A stretch of 64,000 bases of DNA from Actinomycetes bacterium (GTDB lineage Bacteria; Actinomycetota; Thermoleophilia; RBG-16-64-13), in NCBI GenBank assembly GCA_024637095.1, contig JAGXFV010000025.1, forward strand, positions 43,208 to 107,207, in the 5' to 3' direction. The translations under genes and the position numbers were made by a program. Every line of letters begins with the position of its first letter. Position 1 is the stretch's first letter. Below, piece by piece: positions 6,519 to 15,617 of the stretch. The notes below the pieces were generated by a model, which saw only the letters and a list, made by a program, of their open reading frames with translations, did no database searches and was not told where the DNA came from.

Positions 6519-6547
6519 TTGACCTGGGACCCTTACCGTTGTAAAAC
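6519..6547 (+). promoter_or_regulatory. Candidate sigma70-type promoter for the 6801-7943 cassette
   Basis: TTGACC (6519-6524), 17-nt spacer, TAAAAC (6542-6547). Confidence 0.4.
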
Positions 6548-6754
6548 CCCTGTAGGGACGTTTTTGGCTCTTGCCGGACAAACGTCCTGACTTCCTTACG
6601 ATGGGGGACCATATGAGGTCCGGGGGGCCTACTCTAGCGCTTCACGCAGGAATCACGCCGGCCCGGCGTCGCGTGTTGCCGCACCCCAAGCCCTGCCCGA
6701 GGCGCGGACCGCGCTGGCCGCTGGGGAACCCCTTGGGGGGGTGGTGTCCTTGAA

Positions 6755-6769
6755 AGTCAGCAGCTGACT
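6755..6769. promoter_or_regulatory. 15-bp palindrome AGTCAGCAGCTGACT, candidate operator
   Basis: Perfect 7-bp arms around a single base, about 20 nt upstream of the AAGGAGG Shine-Dalgarno of the 6801 gene. Confidence 0.35.
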
Positions 6770-6800: not shown

Positions 6801-7319
6801 GTGTCCACTGGGACAGACACACAAGTGTCTCCCGCAGAGCGTCCTTCGGCCCCGACCGATCCGCTTTCGTCTTCAACGTCCTTCTGGGCCTCGAAGACCG
6901 CCGAGCGCATCCTAACCCTGCTGGTGGTATGGGGGGCGGCGGCGGCCATAACCTACGTCTTCTGGTGGATCGACAACGGACTGGTAGACGCCAGTCTGTT
7001 TTCCGCGGTATTCGCCTATTGGGGACTCTTCTTCATTTTCACCCTCGGCCTGTACCTAGGTCTTGGGGGAGGCGACTGCTACTCGTGCACCCTACAGAAC
7101 GAGCCGTTTTCCCCGGAGGCCCTCCGCAAGGCCGCGGGGATCGGCATCGCCATGGTCGGCACCGCGATTTCGGTCGCGCTCACCACTCATTTTGCCCAAT
7201 ACGCCGGCCCCGAAGGAGCTCAGGGTCTCAATCTGGCCGGAACTCAGGTGTTCTCACTACTGCCCCTGCATTGGGGCTTTGTCTGGGTGGTCTTCGTCCA
7301 GCATGTCGGACTGGTATAG
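6801..7319 (+). CDS. Uncharacterised four-TM membrane protein A of the three-gene cassette
   Basis: GTG start preceded by AAGGAGG; four hydrophobic segments; GGGDCYSCTLQ loop; no family recognised. Confidence 0.8.
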   Translation: MSTGTDTQVSPAERPSAPTDPLSSSTSFWASKTAERILTLLVVWGAAAAITYVFWWIDNGLVDASLFSAVFAYWGLFFIFTLGLYLGLGGGDCYSCTLQNEPFSPEALRKAAGIGIAMVGTAISVALTTHFAQYAGPEGAQGLNLAGTQVFSLLPLHWGFVWVVFVQHVGLV

Positions 7320-7330
7320 GAGGTGCTGCG

Positions 7331-7735
7331 ATGACCAACATCGGAGGCAAACTCGGAGTTCTGCTGGCCATAGTCCTACTGGCCGCCGTCAGCGTCCTTG
7401 TCATGACCGCCCTGGATTGGCACGTCGCCGGAAGTGACGACGCGCAAGGGCTGCTCGGACTGGACATAGACCTGTGGCTCATCTTTTGGACCCTCGCCCT
7501 GACCGGCTACTGGGGGTTGCCCGGAAAAGATGTGCCCTACGTGCGCAAAGCCATCGGCACCGTGGTCATTCTCGTCTTGGCGGTGGTGTTCACCTACGTC
7601 TTCAAGGCCATAAGCCCGGGCATCGTCGGCGGAAGCGTGGACGAGTACCCCTTGATGTCCATTACCTTCGTAGCCTGGTCCCTGGTCTTCGTCATGACGG
7701 CTCTCTGGGTGGGGTCGTTCTATCCCAAGATCTAG
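7331..7735 (+). CDS. Uncharacterised four-TM membrane protein B of the three-gene cassette
   Basis: ATG start with upstream AGGAGGT; MTNIGGKLGVLLAIVLLAAVSVLVMTALDWHV...; shares YWGL and RKAxG landmarks with protein A. Confidence 0.75.
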   Translation: MTNIGGKLGVLLAIVLLAAVSVLVMTALDWHVAGSDDAQGLLGLDIDLWLIFWTLALTGYWGLPGKDVPYVRKAIGTVVILVLAVVFTYVFKAISPGIVGGSVDEYPLMSITFVAWSLVFVMTALWVGSFYPKI

Positions 7736-7775
7736 TCTCGAGAGAGAGGACAAAGCTCATGCAGAGGAGACAACC

Positions 7776-7943
7776 ATGATGACCACCCGGAACCGTGTGC
7801 TGCTCGAGGTGCTGGTGGTCGGCGTGCTCACCGTCGTGACGACCGCCGTCCTGCTGGGGCTCAACATCGGTGGAGTCATCGGGTCGGTGGTCGCGCTCTG
7901 GGCGTTGCTCTACATGCTCTGGTACAACTATCTGGTGACCTGA
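7776..7943 (+). CDS. 55-aa, two-TM membrane peptide of the three-gene cassette
   Basis: MMTTRNRVLLEVLVVGVLTVVTTAVLLGLNIGGVIGSVVALWALLYMLWYNYLVT*; below the supplied ORF cutoff, co-directional with the two genes before it. Confidence 0.6.
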   Translation: MMTTRNRVLLEVLVVGVLTVVTTAVLLGLNIGGVIGSVVALWALLYMLWYNYLVT

Positions 7944-9995: not shown

Positions 9996-11495
<1,500 letters not shown>

Positions 11496-11546: not shown

Positions 11547-12272
11547 CTAGTGCCCGTGGTGGTCGAAGATGCGGCTGACCGCCCGCTCCACTTCCCCGGA
11601 CACGGCTTTGCTCACGCGGACGTCCGCCGCCTCGCTCAGGGGCCGGACCAGGACCTCGCGGAGGGCGGCCAGCCCTTGATCGCTCAGGCGGAAGCAGTCG
11701 TGCACGCCCTCCCCGTAGCAATCCTGGCAAACCACCCCACCCAGGGACGGGTCGAAGGCGCACAGGAACTCGTCCTCGCCGCACTTCTGGCAGGAATCCA
11801 GCTCGGGCAGATAGCCGTGCGCCACCAGCAGTTTGGAACGGGCGGCGAGCACCACCCCAGCCGCCGCCTCGCGGCTCTCGGCGAGGGAGAGGTAACCCAC
11901 GGCCCGTACCAGCAGGTTGAAGGCGGCGGCGTTCTCCTCCTCTTCGGGAAAGTAGCGGCGAACATCCTCGAGCAGGCGGGCGCCTTCGTCCATCCGGTAT
12001 AGCTGGTCCCGCACGGCCTGAAAAGTGCGGATGGTCTGGGCCCCGGTGATGCTGTAAAGGCTGCTGCGCCCTAGGTGAAGCGAAATCTCCACCAGACTGA
12101 ACGGCTCGAGGCGGCCGCCCAGCCGGGACTTGGTGCGCCGAATGCCTTTGGCGATCGCGGACACGCGTCCGCGATCGCGAGTGTAGAGGGTCAGGATCTG
12201 GTCGGCCTCTTTAAACCGGCGTGAGCTGACGACCAAGGCCGGGGTCTCCAGGGATCGGTTCCCGCCCGCCAT
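11547..12272 (-). CDS. recO: DNA repair protein RecO
   Basis: Start ALVVSSRRFKEADQILTLYTRDRGRVSAIAKGIRR; Zn motif CQKCG...CQDC. Confidence 0.92.
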   Translation of the reverse strand: MAGGNRSLETPALVVSSRRFKEADQILTLYTRDRGRVSAIAKGIRRTKSRLGGRLEPFSLVEISLHLGRSSLYSITGAQTIRTFQAVRDQLYRMDEGARLLEDVRRYFPEEEENAAAFNLLVRAVGYLSLAESREAAAGVVLAARSKLLVAHGYLPELDSCQKCGEDEFLCAFDPSLGGVVCQDCYGEGVHDCFRLSDQGLAALREVLVRPLSEAADVRVSKAVSGEVERAVSRIFDHHGH

Positions 12273-12317
12273 GTCACTCTCCGGCCGAACTTAAGGTTGC
12301 TGGACTCGAAGGTGCGA

Positions 12318-13007
12318 CTAGGACTCGGAAAAGCCTTTGATGATATCGACCGCCGAAGAAGTGCCGATGCGGGCGGCGCCCGCGTTGATCATCAGTTCCG
12401 CGTCCTCGGCGGTACGGATGCCGCCCGCGGCCTTGACCCCCACGTTCTCGGAAAGCAGGTCGCGGAAGAGTTCGACGTCCTTGGCCGTGGCGCCGCCCGG
12501 GGCCTTGCCCGAAGAGGTCTTGAGAAAGTCCGCGCCCGAATCCTCGACGATCTTGGCCACCAGGCGCTTGAGCTTTTCGTCCAGGTAGTAGGCCTCCACG
12601 ATCACCTTGACCTGCACGATTCCGCGGCCGATGTTCACGCTCTTCATGCGCACGGCCCGCGTCAGGCTGGCCAGCTCATCCCGTACATAGCGGAAGTCAC
12701 CCGAAAGCATGGCCGGGATGTTCATCACCACATCGAGTTCATCCGCGCCGGCCGCAACAGCGGCCTCAGCGGCGGCGATCTTTGCCCGTCGGCCATCCGC
12801 TCCGTAGGGGTAGGAGACGACCGTTCCCACCTTGACGTCGTGACCCCGCAGGAGCTGCTGCGCCAAGGGGACAAAATACGGAAAGATAGACACGGACGCG
12901 AAGTGGTGTTCGATTGCGTCCTTGCACAGCCTTTCGACATCCTGCTCGGTCGCCGTAGGCTCGAGCAACGTGCTATCGATGGTCTTGGCCAGCTCCTCGA
13001 CTCTCAA
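12318..13007 (-). CDS. deoC: Deoxyribose-phosphate aldolase
   Basis: IDSTLLEPTATEQDVERLC, DELDVVMNI, KVIVEAYYL, FLKTSSG, VGVKAAGGIRT. Confidence 0.95.
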   Translation of the reverse strand: MRVEELAKTIDSTLLEPTATEQDVERLCKDAIEHHFASVSIFPYFVPLAQQLLRGHDVKVGTVVSYPYGADGRRAKIAAAEAAVAAGADELDVVMNIPAMLSGDFRYVRDELASLTRAVRMKSVNIGRGIVQVKVIVEAYYLDEKLKRLVAKIVEDSGADFLKTSSGKAPGGATAKDVELFRDLLSENVGVKAAGGIRTAEDAELMINAGAARIGTSSAVDIIKGFSES

Positions 13008-13185
13008 GTGATCCCGTCCTTTCCGCCCGCACCGCCGCCTTTCGGCCGCCCGGTCGCGAGCGAGCGCCTCTACTCGGAAACTACCATTCTACCGCCCTGT
13101 GCAAGCCCCCTGGCGAGCCGCCGAGTGTTTGCCGCTCAGCCGCGCCTCTGCGCCGGGGCTCTGCCGGGCCGCGAGGCCGCATCCT

Positions 13186-14094
13186 CTACAATCCCAGGCG
13201 CTCGAGCATGCTCGAATCGCGGCGCCAACGTTTGCGCACCTTGACCCCCAAATCCAGGTAGAACTTCGAGCCCAACAGCGCCTCGGCCTCGCGTCGAGCC
13301 TCGGAGCCGATCTCCTTGATGCGCTCTCCCCCGACTCCGAGCACAATCGGCCGCTGGGAATCCCGCTCGACGTAGATCAGGGCGCGCACATAGACCAGTT
13401 CGCCACCCTTTCGCGGAGCCATCTCCTCGACCTGCACCGCCAGCGAGTGCGGTACTTCGTCCTGGGTCACGCGGATGGCCTGCTCCCGGATGAGCTCGGC
13501 GATCAGAAGCTCCTCCGGCTGGTCGGTCTTCGTACCCCTGGGGAAGTAGAGAGGGCCCTCGGGGAGCCTTTCGGACAGCTCCAGGCGCAGAGCGGCAACC
13601 CCGGTGCCTTCAAGAGCGCTCACCGCGAACACGTCCTCGGCAAACCCCATTCGGCCGAGCACGTTCCTCCGGAGTTGCACGGACTCCTCGCCCACCAGAT
13701 CCACCTTGTTGAGCGCCACGAGCACAGGCGTGCGCAGCTCCGCCAGCCGGTTGGTGATGAAGCGGTCCCCCGGCCCCGGCTCCTCATCGGCGGGCAGCAT
13801 GAAGAGAACCACATCCACCTCGGTCAGGGTCTCCTCCACCCTCCCCTGCATGCGTTCAGTCAGCTGATCGCGCGGCCTCTGCACCCCGGGGATATCGAGC
13901 AGCACCAACTGATACTCGTCCGTCGTCACCACTCCGGTCACGCGGTGTCGGGTGGTCTGCGGTTTGTCCGAGGTGATGCTGACCTTGCGATCGACCAGCG
14001 CATTCACCAAGGTGGACTTGCCCACGTTCGGCCGACCCAGCAGGGCCACATAGCCGGAGCGAAAACCCGGCGGGGATTCGCCAATGACGTTCAC
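13186..14094 (-). CDS. era: GTPase Era
   Basis: GRPNVGKSTLVN, DIPGVQRP, NKVD, KH-like C-terminus. GTG at 14094 (VNVIGES) is the probable start. Confidence 0.95.
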   Translation of the reverse strand: MNVIGESPPGFRSGYVALLGRPNVGKSTLVNALVDRKVSITSDKPQTTRHRVTGVVTTDEYQLVLLDIPGVQRPRDQLTERMQGRVEETLTEVDVVLFMLPADEEPGPGDRFITNRLAELRTPVLVALNKVDLVGEESVQLRRNVLGRMGFAEDVFAVSALEGTGVAALRLELSERLPEGPLYFPRGTKTDQPEELLIAELIREQAIRVTQDEVPHSLAVQVEEMAPRKGGELVYVRALIYVERDSQRPIVLGVGGERIKEIGSEARREAEALLGSKFYLDLGVKVRKRWRRDSSMLERLGL

Positions 14095-14095
14095 G

Positions 14096-14599
14096 CTAGT
14101 CCTCGTCCCAGGCGAGCACGATGCGATGTTCGCCGGGTCCATAGAAGTCCTCGATCCGCTCGAGTTCTGTGAAACCGAACTCGGCATAGAGACGGCGGGC
14201 GCGCCGGTTCGCGGGGTCCACCGTCAGCCTCACGGCCCGCACGCCGAACTCCCCCAAATGCCCAAGCAATTCGCGGAGGAAGCCCCGGCCCAAACCGCGC
14301 CCCTGAAAACGCGGCCGCACCCAGAAGCCCACCACCCACGCGGATTCGGGCTCGTCCATCATGCGCATGGCTTGGCAACAGGCCGCGATCTCTCCGTCGA
14401 TGAGACCGAGGAAGAGCGCTCCCGCCCGCGCCACCACACCCAAGTCGTAGCTGCGCAGCCCGGTCTCGCCGAAAGCCTCGCGGTCGTACTCGGAGAGCAG
14501 AGCGAGCGTCTCCTGATCGGGCGCGGTCCACCGCTCGATGGTCCACCGCTCGATGGTCAATCCCGAGTTGCTCTCATCCAAGCCGGCCGCATCGGCCAC
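14096..14599 (-). CDS. GNAT family N-acetyltransferase
   Basis: WVVGFWVRPRFQGRGLGRGFLRELLGHLGEFGVRAVRLTVDPANRRARRLYAEFGF. Confidence 0.88.
   Translation of the reverse strand: MADAAGLDESNSGLTIERWTIERWTAPDQETLALLSEYDREAFGETGLRSYDLGVVARAGALFLGLIDGEIAACCQAMRMMDEPESAWVVGFWVRPRFQGRGLGRGFLRELLGHLGEFGVRAVRLTVDPANRRARRLYAEFGFTELERIEDFYGPGEHRIVLAWDED
14525..14558. repeat. 15-bp tandem duplication (about 2.3 copies) in the GNAT 5' end
   Basis: GGTCCACCGCTCGAT twice then GGTC; encodes TIERWTIERW. Confidence 0.85.
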
Positions 14600-14819
14600 G
14601 CCGGCCGCATCGACAGTGCCCGCGGCGTTCGCGTCGCCCGCCCCGCCGGTCGTGCCGGCCGCACCCTGTGGATCAGACCGTCGTTTGCCGGATTCTCTGA
14701 CTTCCGTCGCCGCCTCCTTTCCTATCTGTTCAGCACCGGCGAAGGGAGTCCTCGGCGGCCGTTGGCTTTACATCTGCCCAGCCAGAGCCGCGCTCACGCC
14801 GTCAGGCGCCACGCCTTGC

Positions 14820-15617
14820 TCAATACGCCACCTGAAAGATGAGTGTGGTCACCGTGGCCCCGAGCAGCGCGCCCAGCGATACCTCCACGGTGGTGTGAAT
14901 GCCGGCCTGTACCCGGCTTTGGGCGGTGAGCCCCGCCATGAAGAAAGCCATCGCGCTGACCAACAACTGATAAGACGTGCCTGCCAGCACAAAGCTGATG
15001 GCGGCCCAGCCTGCGAACGCAACCGCGGCGTGCCCTGATGGCAGGCCGCCCGAGAGTAGATCGGTCCGCCCCGCCAGGGCTTTGGCCACTATAACCAGGA
15101 GAATCACGAGAATCAGCGCCACGAAGGTCAGATGGGAGGCGGAGCTCCTCAGCGTAGTGAAAACGGAGGCCGAGACGCCCGACGCCTTGGACCCGAAGAC
15201 AAAGTAGGCCACGACGAGAGCGTGCATCGCAGCGACCAGCACAGCGCCCGCGGAAACGTCCTTGGCCACCTTGGCGCGAGGATCGTAGTCCGGCATCACC
15301 AGATCGACCAAGGCCTCGATCGCCGTGTTCAGAAGCTCCGCGATGAAGACGAAGGTGATCGCACCGAAGATGGAGAGCAGCTCCAACCGCGTGAGCGGGA
15401 AGAAGAGGCTCGCCAGCAGCACGACGAAGGCCAACGCGAAGTGCACCCGGAAGTTGCGCTGATAACGAAAAGCGTAGACCAGCCCCTCGAAGGCGTGGCT
15501 GAAGCTCCGGAGTATGCTGGCCCGCGGGGCGGGGCGCCAGGGGATCGGCTCCGGTTCGGCGCGCCCAAGGTGCCGCTTGTTCTCGGCCCGCCGCGATGGC
15601 CGGTCCGCGCGGCTCAC
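14820..15617 (-). CDS. Diacylglycerol/undecaprenol kinase (DgkA-like) fused to PAP2-like phosphatase
   Basis: N-terminal DGK core RNFRVHFALAFVVLLASLFF...IAELLNTAIEALVDL...AKDVSAGAVLVAA; C-terminal PAP2 motifs KALAGRTD, PSGHAAVAF, SRVQAGIHTTVEV. Confidence 0.88.
   Translation of the reverse strand: MSRADRPSRRAENKRHLGRAEPEPIPWRPAPRASILRSFSHAFEGLVYAFRYQRNFRVHFALAFVVLLASLFFPLTRLELLSIFGAITFVFIAELLNTAIEALVDLVMPDYDPRAKVAKDVSAGAVLVAAMHALVVAYFVFGSKASGVSASVFTTLRSSASHLTFVALILVILLVIVAKALAGRTDLLSGGLPSGHAAVAFAGWAAISFVLAGTSYQLLVSAMAFFMAGLTAQSRVQAGIHTTVEVSLGALLGATVTTLIFQVAY

Follow-up and report, generated by a model that had tools for sequence, protein, structure and literature searches.

The 64,000-nucleotide stretch of DNA analysed here (the window) carries three consecutive genes, A, B and C, which probably encode a hitherto undescribed membrane component of methanol metabolism in bacteria, namely in uncultured anaerobic actinobacteria. 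Methanol is an important C1 substrate for anaerobes, and the MtaABC pathway has so far been described as a set of soluble enzymes. The cassette is very probably associated with a methanol regulon centred on MtaB, a zinc enzyme, and MtaC, a corrinoid protein. Computational comparison finds A, B and C in the same genomes as mtaB, in synteny with it in two genera and behind the same type of leader, and all three genes are under purifying selection. The link to mtaB/mtaC and the common leader are the informative part, and neither had been noticed in the initial annotation, which was made from the letters of the window. If a dedicated, co-regulated module of this kind is true, some bacteria need membrane help with methanol, be it in uptake, anchoring or energy coupling. 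Three orphan proteins thereby give rise to a testable prediction, namely induction together with mtaBC on methanol.

The features of the locus are collected in Table 1. The initial annotation had proposed three co-directional genes, each with a start codon and a Shine-Dalgarno (SD) sequence, and this is upheld by the open reading frames, by recurrence in other genomes and by dN/dS. The genes are separated by 11 nt (A to B) and 40 nt (B to C), and a good SD precedes each of them. Comparing the two genomes of the window's genus, G000 and G001, we obtain dN/dS values of 0.08 for A, 0.06 for B and 0.07 for C, and a second genome pair yields 0.09-0.12 across the three. These low values, together with the recurrence in six genomes, identify A, B and the 54/55-aa C as real genes under purifying selection. 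The true start of C is probably its second ATG at 7779 (54 aa), because the orthologues in most other genomes begin there. C was indeed absent from the original list of open reading frames, as had been remarked, but it appears as soon as the length limit is set to 40 aa. Hydropathy gives 4, 4 and 2 transmembrane (TM) segments for A, B and C, the same counts as first claimed, and together with the loop charges it fits an N-in/C-in topology for all three, as predicted by the positive-inside rule. The description of the surroundings as minus-strand holds locally, where radical-SAM and MMPL-like genes upstream and ABC genes downstream (identities assigned by eye) are on the minus strand, but not for guaB. 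Farther upstream, the minus strand encodes a 727-aa protein (711-2894) in which, by eye, an FAD-dependent oxidoreductase-type domain appears to be fused to C-terminal S-layer-homology-like repeats.

Table 1. Features of the cassette locus, in window coordinates
Feature	Position	Strand	Description
Promoter-like site	6519..6547	+	predicted; TTGACC-N17-TAAAAC, upstream of the cassette leader
Leader element	6735..6767	+	extended SD GGGGGGGTGGTGTCC, then mini-ORF TTG AAA GTC AGC AGC TGA (6750-6767)
Gene A	6801-7319	+	172-aa membrane protein, 4 TM; start GTG, SD AAGGAGGT
Gene B	7331-7735	+	134-aa membrane protein, 4 TM as two 2-TM hairpins; start ATG, SD GGAGGTG
Gene C	7776-7943	+	55-aa (probably 54-aa) membrane protein, a single 2-TM hairpin
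guaB	10029-11495	+	IMP dehydrogenase, flanking gene

Profile searches covered the Actinomycetota in samples of 99 relatives, 397 genomes of the phylum and 399 genomes of the class, most of them metagenome-assembled. The cassette is found in 6 of 99 relatives, 2 of 397 phylum genomes and 6 of 399 class genomes; MtaB (PF12176) is found in 6, 2 and 6, and in each sample the genomes are identical. A seventh match to B in the class sample, a 49-residue fragment with an internal stop (E 5e-4), was rejected as noise. C is present in the same six genomes, and six mtaB-less relatives yield no credible match to it. The six genomes belong to three genera of one family, and in every one of them A, B and C occur together, in this order and as single copies; the initial annotation had asked for such co-occurrence to be checked. 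A collection-wide scan used exact peptides and misses distant relatives such as the G006/G014 type; no relatives of B were found in plasmid and viral collections.

Two genera, represented by G004/G013 and G006/G014, have the genes arranged contiguously as A-B-C-mtaB-mtaC. The window's genus has mtaB on a contig separate from the cassette (C45 in G000, C18 in G001), which makes it the stronger case for an association. Counted by genus, cassette and mtaB coincide in 3 of the 12 genera of the family; unlinked loci would do so with a probability of about 1 in 220, a figure that rests on few independent events and on two genera in which physical linkage accounts for the coincidence. Acetyl-CoA synthase is encoded in five of the six cassette genomes (the sixth is 64% complete), so that carbon from methanol probably feeds into the Wood-Ljungdahl pathway. 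Since the synthase is also present in 7 mtaB-less relatives, the cassette tracks mtaB and not the Wood-Ljungdahl pathway generally; a tie to the whole pathway was rejected, acetyl-CoA synthase being far more widespread.

The MtaB encoded on C45 of G000 matches PF12176 with 650 bits against a cut-off of 25 and aligns with Methanosarcina barkeri MtaB (2i2x_A) at E 9e-142. The residues E164, C220 and C269, which we take to be the Zn ligands of the M. barkeri enzyme, are aligned and identical, and on this sequence evidence the protein is a true methanol methyltransferase. MtaC matches the B12-binding families PF02310 and PF02607, keeps the lower-ligand motif DxHxxG (as GDIHDIGKN/GDVHDIGKN), and matches 2i2x_B, the partner of M. 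barkeri MtaB. Both are clear members of the MtaA/MtaB/MtaC system of methanogens, of acetogens including Moorella, Acetobacterium and Eubacterium, and of Desulfotomaculum kuznetsovii. The genes around mtaBC comprise a URO-D-family MtaA-like gene, an AAA_5 ATPase, an unknown 593-aa protein, a RACo-type corrinoid activator and a CobW GTPase, the latter two near mtaBC in g1, g4 and G014. At L021:16585-17514, the CobW/COG0523 GTPase gene adjoins that of the RACo-type activator; in methanogens, CobW-family (COG0523) genes are known to cluster with mta genes (PMC2770081). What sets the present loci apart from MtaABC systems elsewhere is the three-gene membrane cassette tied to mtaBC. M. thermoacetica uses methanol via a mtaA1-B1-C1 cluster with no membrane or transporter genes described nearby (PMC13391211), and an excerpt on D. 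kuznetsovii describes only methyltransferase and B12-synthesis genes (PMC5770442).

The leaders of cassette and mtaB are roughly 130-340 nt long and lie behind putative sigma70-like promoters. At positions equivalent to the promoter-like site of the window, other genomes carry a near-consensus TTGAC-N17-TATAxx, as judged by eye and simple scoring. Common to both kinds of leader is a very strong SD with a mini-ORF (2-8 codons) behind it, an arrangement present in 10 of 12 leaders with at most 2 of 200 shuffles as strong; for the window leader, none of 200 dinucleotide shuffles is equally strong. In a set of 84 leaders of at least 130 nt, drawn from the window and from seven loci, every one of the ten top-scoring is a cassette or mtaB leader, the window leader included, in a test that was devised after the motif had been seen in the same leaders and in which orthologous leaders are non-independent. 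As for the remaining two of the 12, the mtaB leader of G004 has ATG GAG TGA behind an SD that is weaker, and the A leader of G013 has the same SD and start but a long uORF. The mini-ORFs ATG GTG TGA, ATG ACC TAG and ATG GAG TGA are located 104-105 nt 5' of mtaB, and an ATG-NNN-stop at this distance recurs in four genomes of two genera. The individual sites are found at L021:8068-8622, L013:9007-9343 and 10353-10850, and L014:1-485 and 1481-1863, besides window positions 6735-6767.

In G000 and G001, cassette and mtaB have this leader type in common though the loci are unlinked. Scanning whole genomes for the exact pattern followed by a short ORF returns only the cassette (G000) and mtaB (G001). 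Because the same rare leader precedes both, even on different contigs, cassette and mtaB are probably co-regulated. The SD plus mini-ORF may represent a new translation-based regulatory leader, and mini-ORFs act as regulators elsewhere, for instance in axe-txe according to an excerpt of the published account (PMC8708949). A known riboswitch (cobalamin or other) was considered and rejected: the Rfam 15 scan of the leaders gives no match at the gathering score, nor a sub-threshold one in the three loci so scanned. RNAalifold over all 12 leaders detects no conserved RNA structure. A long DNA motif common to the cassette and mtaB promoters was likewise discarded, with 20-mer matches no better than those of shuffles. 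The SD-plus-mini-ORF leader provides a sequence signature for finding more members of the regulon.

That no family had been recognised at first for the proteins is in agreement with all our searches. A, B and C show no match above the curated cut-offs of Pfam and NCBIfam, with best scores at about half of these cut-offs, and the scan of all A and B members against Pfam is equally blank. Profiles of A and B find nothing in the PDB up to E 10, and the best PDB match of the C profile has E 0.92, above the criterion of E < 0.001. AlphaFold2 models of A and B, built from six-sequence alignments, show four helices at low confidence (pLDDT 60.7 and 59.9), and Foldseek with this weak model of A (pLDDT ~60) returns no fold match.

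All three are integral membrane proteins with loops of about 20 residues or fewer and without a soluble or cofactor domain. They have conserved S, T, Trp and Tyr inside their TM segments, conserved cytoplasmic RK motifs, and a conserved D45 in B and E11 in C. TM4 of A is invariant across six A proteins as LLPLHWGFxWxVxVQHxxL, including the histidines H157 and H168, 11 residues apart on the same helix. A 28-residue N-terminal extension of A is confined to the window's genus. The motifs pointed out initially are in part conserved, but genus g6 (G006, G014) keeps neither YWGL in A nor RKAxG in B. The GGGDCYSC loop of A, for which binding of metal or haem or a disulphide had been suggested, is found in two of the three genera and is missing in g6, so that such a function is not supported as a general role. 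As candidate haem or metal ligands, His157 and His168 are invariant but stand alone.

A and B had also been read as versions of the same fold. To compare them at the level of the 2-TM hairpin, both were split into hairpins and scored alongside 74 hairpins that were taken as controls from other proteins encoded at these loci. The pair of A TM1-2 and B TM3-4 yields 49.2 (controls 24.5 +/- 3.6, n=74); the other pairs reach 42.4 (A TM1-2 with B TM1-2), 40.9 (B TM1-2 with C), 38.8 (A TM1-2 with C), 37.6 (B TM3-4 with C) and 37.5 (the two hairpins of B), with control means of 24-27. One control scores extremely high against C; it is probably the ORF of C itself in a different genome, which the control filter let through. 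With hhalign, A TM1-2 and B TM3-4 are paired at P = 2e-4, with a probability of only 45%. A TM1-2, both hairpins of B, and C are thus more alike than unrelated TM hairpins, as paralogues would be, and the proposed relationship is partly supported, at hairpin level, but A TM3-4 resembles the other hairpins no more than the controls do. The sequences suggest a repeated hairpin unit, present twice in A (with one copy strongly diverged or unrelated), twice in B and once in C.

As to function, we infer that A, B and C assemble into a small heteromeric complex of 2-TM hairpins which is co-induced with mtaBC. An undescribed three-subunit complex devoted to anaerobic methanol metabolism, either a new type of channel or one coupled to methyl transfer, and co-controlled with mtaBC by a mini-ORF leader that senses a step in translation or in C1 metabolism, is a tentative proposal to which we give somewhat less than an even chance. 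The same holds for membership of the methanol regulon combined with a role in transport or uptake, which we regard as conceivable, if short of probable. More specifically, the complex might form a channel or facilitator that admits a small and neutral solute. It would speed methanol entry at low concentration and pass the methanol to MtaB, whereupon the methyl group would travel on MtaC towards tetrahydrofolate and acetyl-CoA synthase. This channel reading builds on the analogy with uptake proteins encoded beside their enzymes elsewhere and on the lack of a soluble or cofactor domain. The short loops, the conserved S/T/Trp/Tyr in the TM segments and the location next to a substrate-specific methyltransferase gene speak for uptake. 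The substrate permeases that go with methylamine and betaine methyltransferases (MttP/MtmP-type and BCCT) are often encoded next to these substrate-specific enzymes, like the cassette, but each is a single carrier with 10-12 TM segments from a known family and handles a charged substrate, whereas methanol carries no charge and the cassette consists of three small orphan proteins. The working analogy is UreI/AmiS, small multimeric neutral-solute channels whose genes lie beside those for urease or amidase, the enzymes using the solute; their protomer has 6 TM segments, in contrast to the 2-TM-hairpin units here, and there is no sequence match. Whether a transporter is needed is in doubt, because methanol permeates membranes unaided and the Moorella cluster is described without membrane genes. 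The lack of homology to transporters or channels in Pfam, NCBIfam and the PDB also counts against a channel, and the AlphaFold models (pLDDT about 60) are too weak to reveal a pore. We favour the channel as the most likely mechanism, but treat it as a possible and doubtful assignment.

In the main rival reading, A, B and C form an anchoring or coupling complex, which would dock MtaBC or the corrinoid activator at the membrane, or would link methyl transfer or the reactivation of the corrinoid with an ion gradient. It would work like the Mtr complex of methanogens (methyl-H4MPT:CoM methyltransferase, MtrA-H), which likewise sits in the membrane and serves methyl transfer by corrinoids, without being related to it. 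The invariable company of mtaB and mtaC fits this reading, as do the RACo-type activator and CobW genes near mtaBC in g1, g4 and G014, and a multi-subunit, 10-TM composition with D45 (B), E11 (C) and the cytoplasmic RK motifs conserved. Loops of about 20 residues or fewer, however, leave no soluble domain for binding MtaBC. The cassette has no sequence match to known families, Mtr subunits included, and no corrinoid-binding or methyltransferase subunit, and conversion of methanol to methyl-THF leaves little energy to conserve, which counts against coupling. We consider an anchoring or coupling role unlikely.

Protection of the envelope from methanol or its by-products, by export or membrane stabilisation and induced with mtaBC because methanol is present, would explain why the cassette has the same leader and genome set as mtaB; the proteins are small and very hydrophobic, and nothing indicates that they are required for catalysis. 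In nature, however, methanol occurs at low concentrations, mtaB-less relatives that are possibly also exposed to it lack the cassette, and TM4 of A (LLPLHWGF..VQH) is strongly conserved, which points to a specific function, so that we rate protection as quite improbable. The two histidines invariant on one helix in six A proteins could make A a b-type cytochrome-like carrier, with H157/H168 of two A subunits binding haem and linking methanol oxidation to an electron chain. This is very improbable, as each A has a single His-bearing helix, conserved His residues are missing from B and C, no cytochrome family is matched and the Cys loop is not conserved. Finally, the cassette might have an unrelated role and merely be carried along with mtaBC in one lineage, given that it is known from three genera of a single family and that linkage alone may account for two of them. 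We give this the least credence of all, since the window's genus keeps both loci and the rare leader on different contigs.

Some further genes were observed near the loci compared here. A multicopper-oxidase-domain protein (PF07731, L023:14663-16711) is located near an MFS transporter; the MFS transporter divergent from the cassette is restricted to genus g4 and not conserved in the other genera. Beside mtaBC, L021 carries an AAA_5 (MoxR-like) ATPase (11997-13082) and the 593-aa protein without a Pfam match (13144-14925). The pair occurs in two genera, with a similar one in L023/L024 and none seen near mtaBC in G006/G014, and might serve the corrinoid system as a pair of chaperones.
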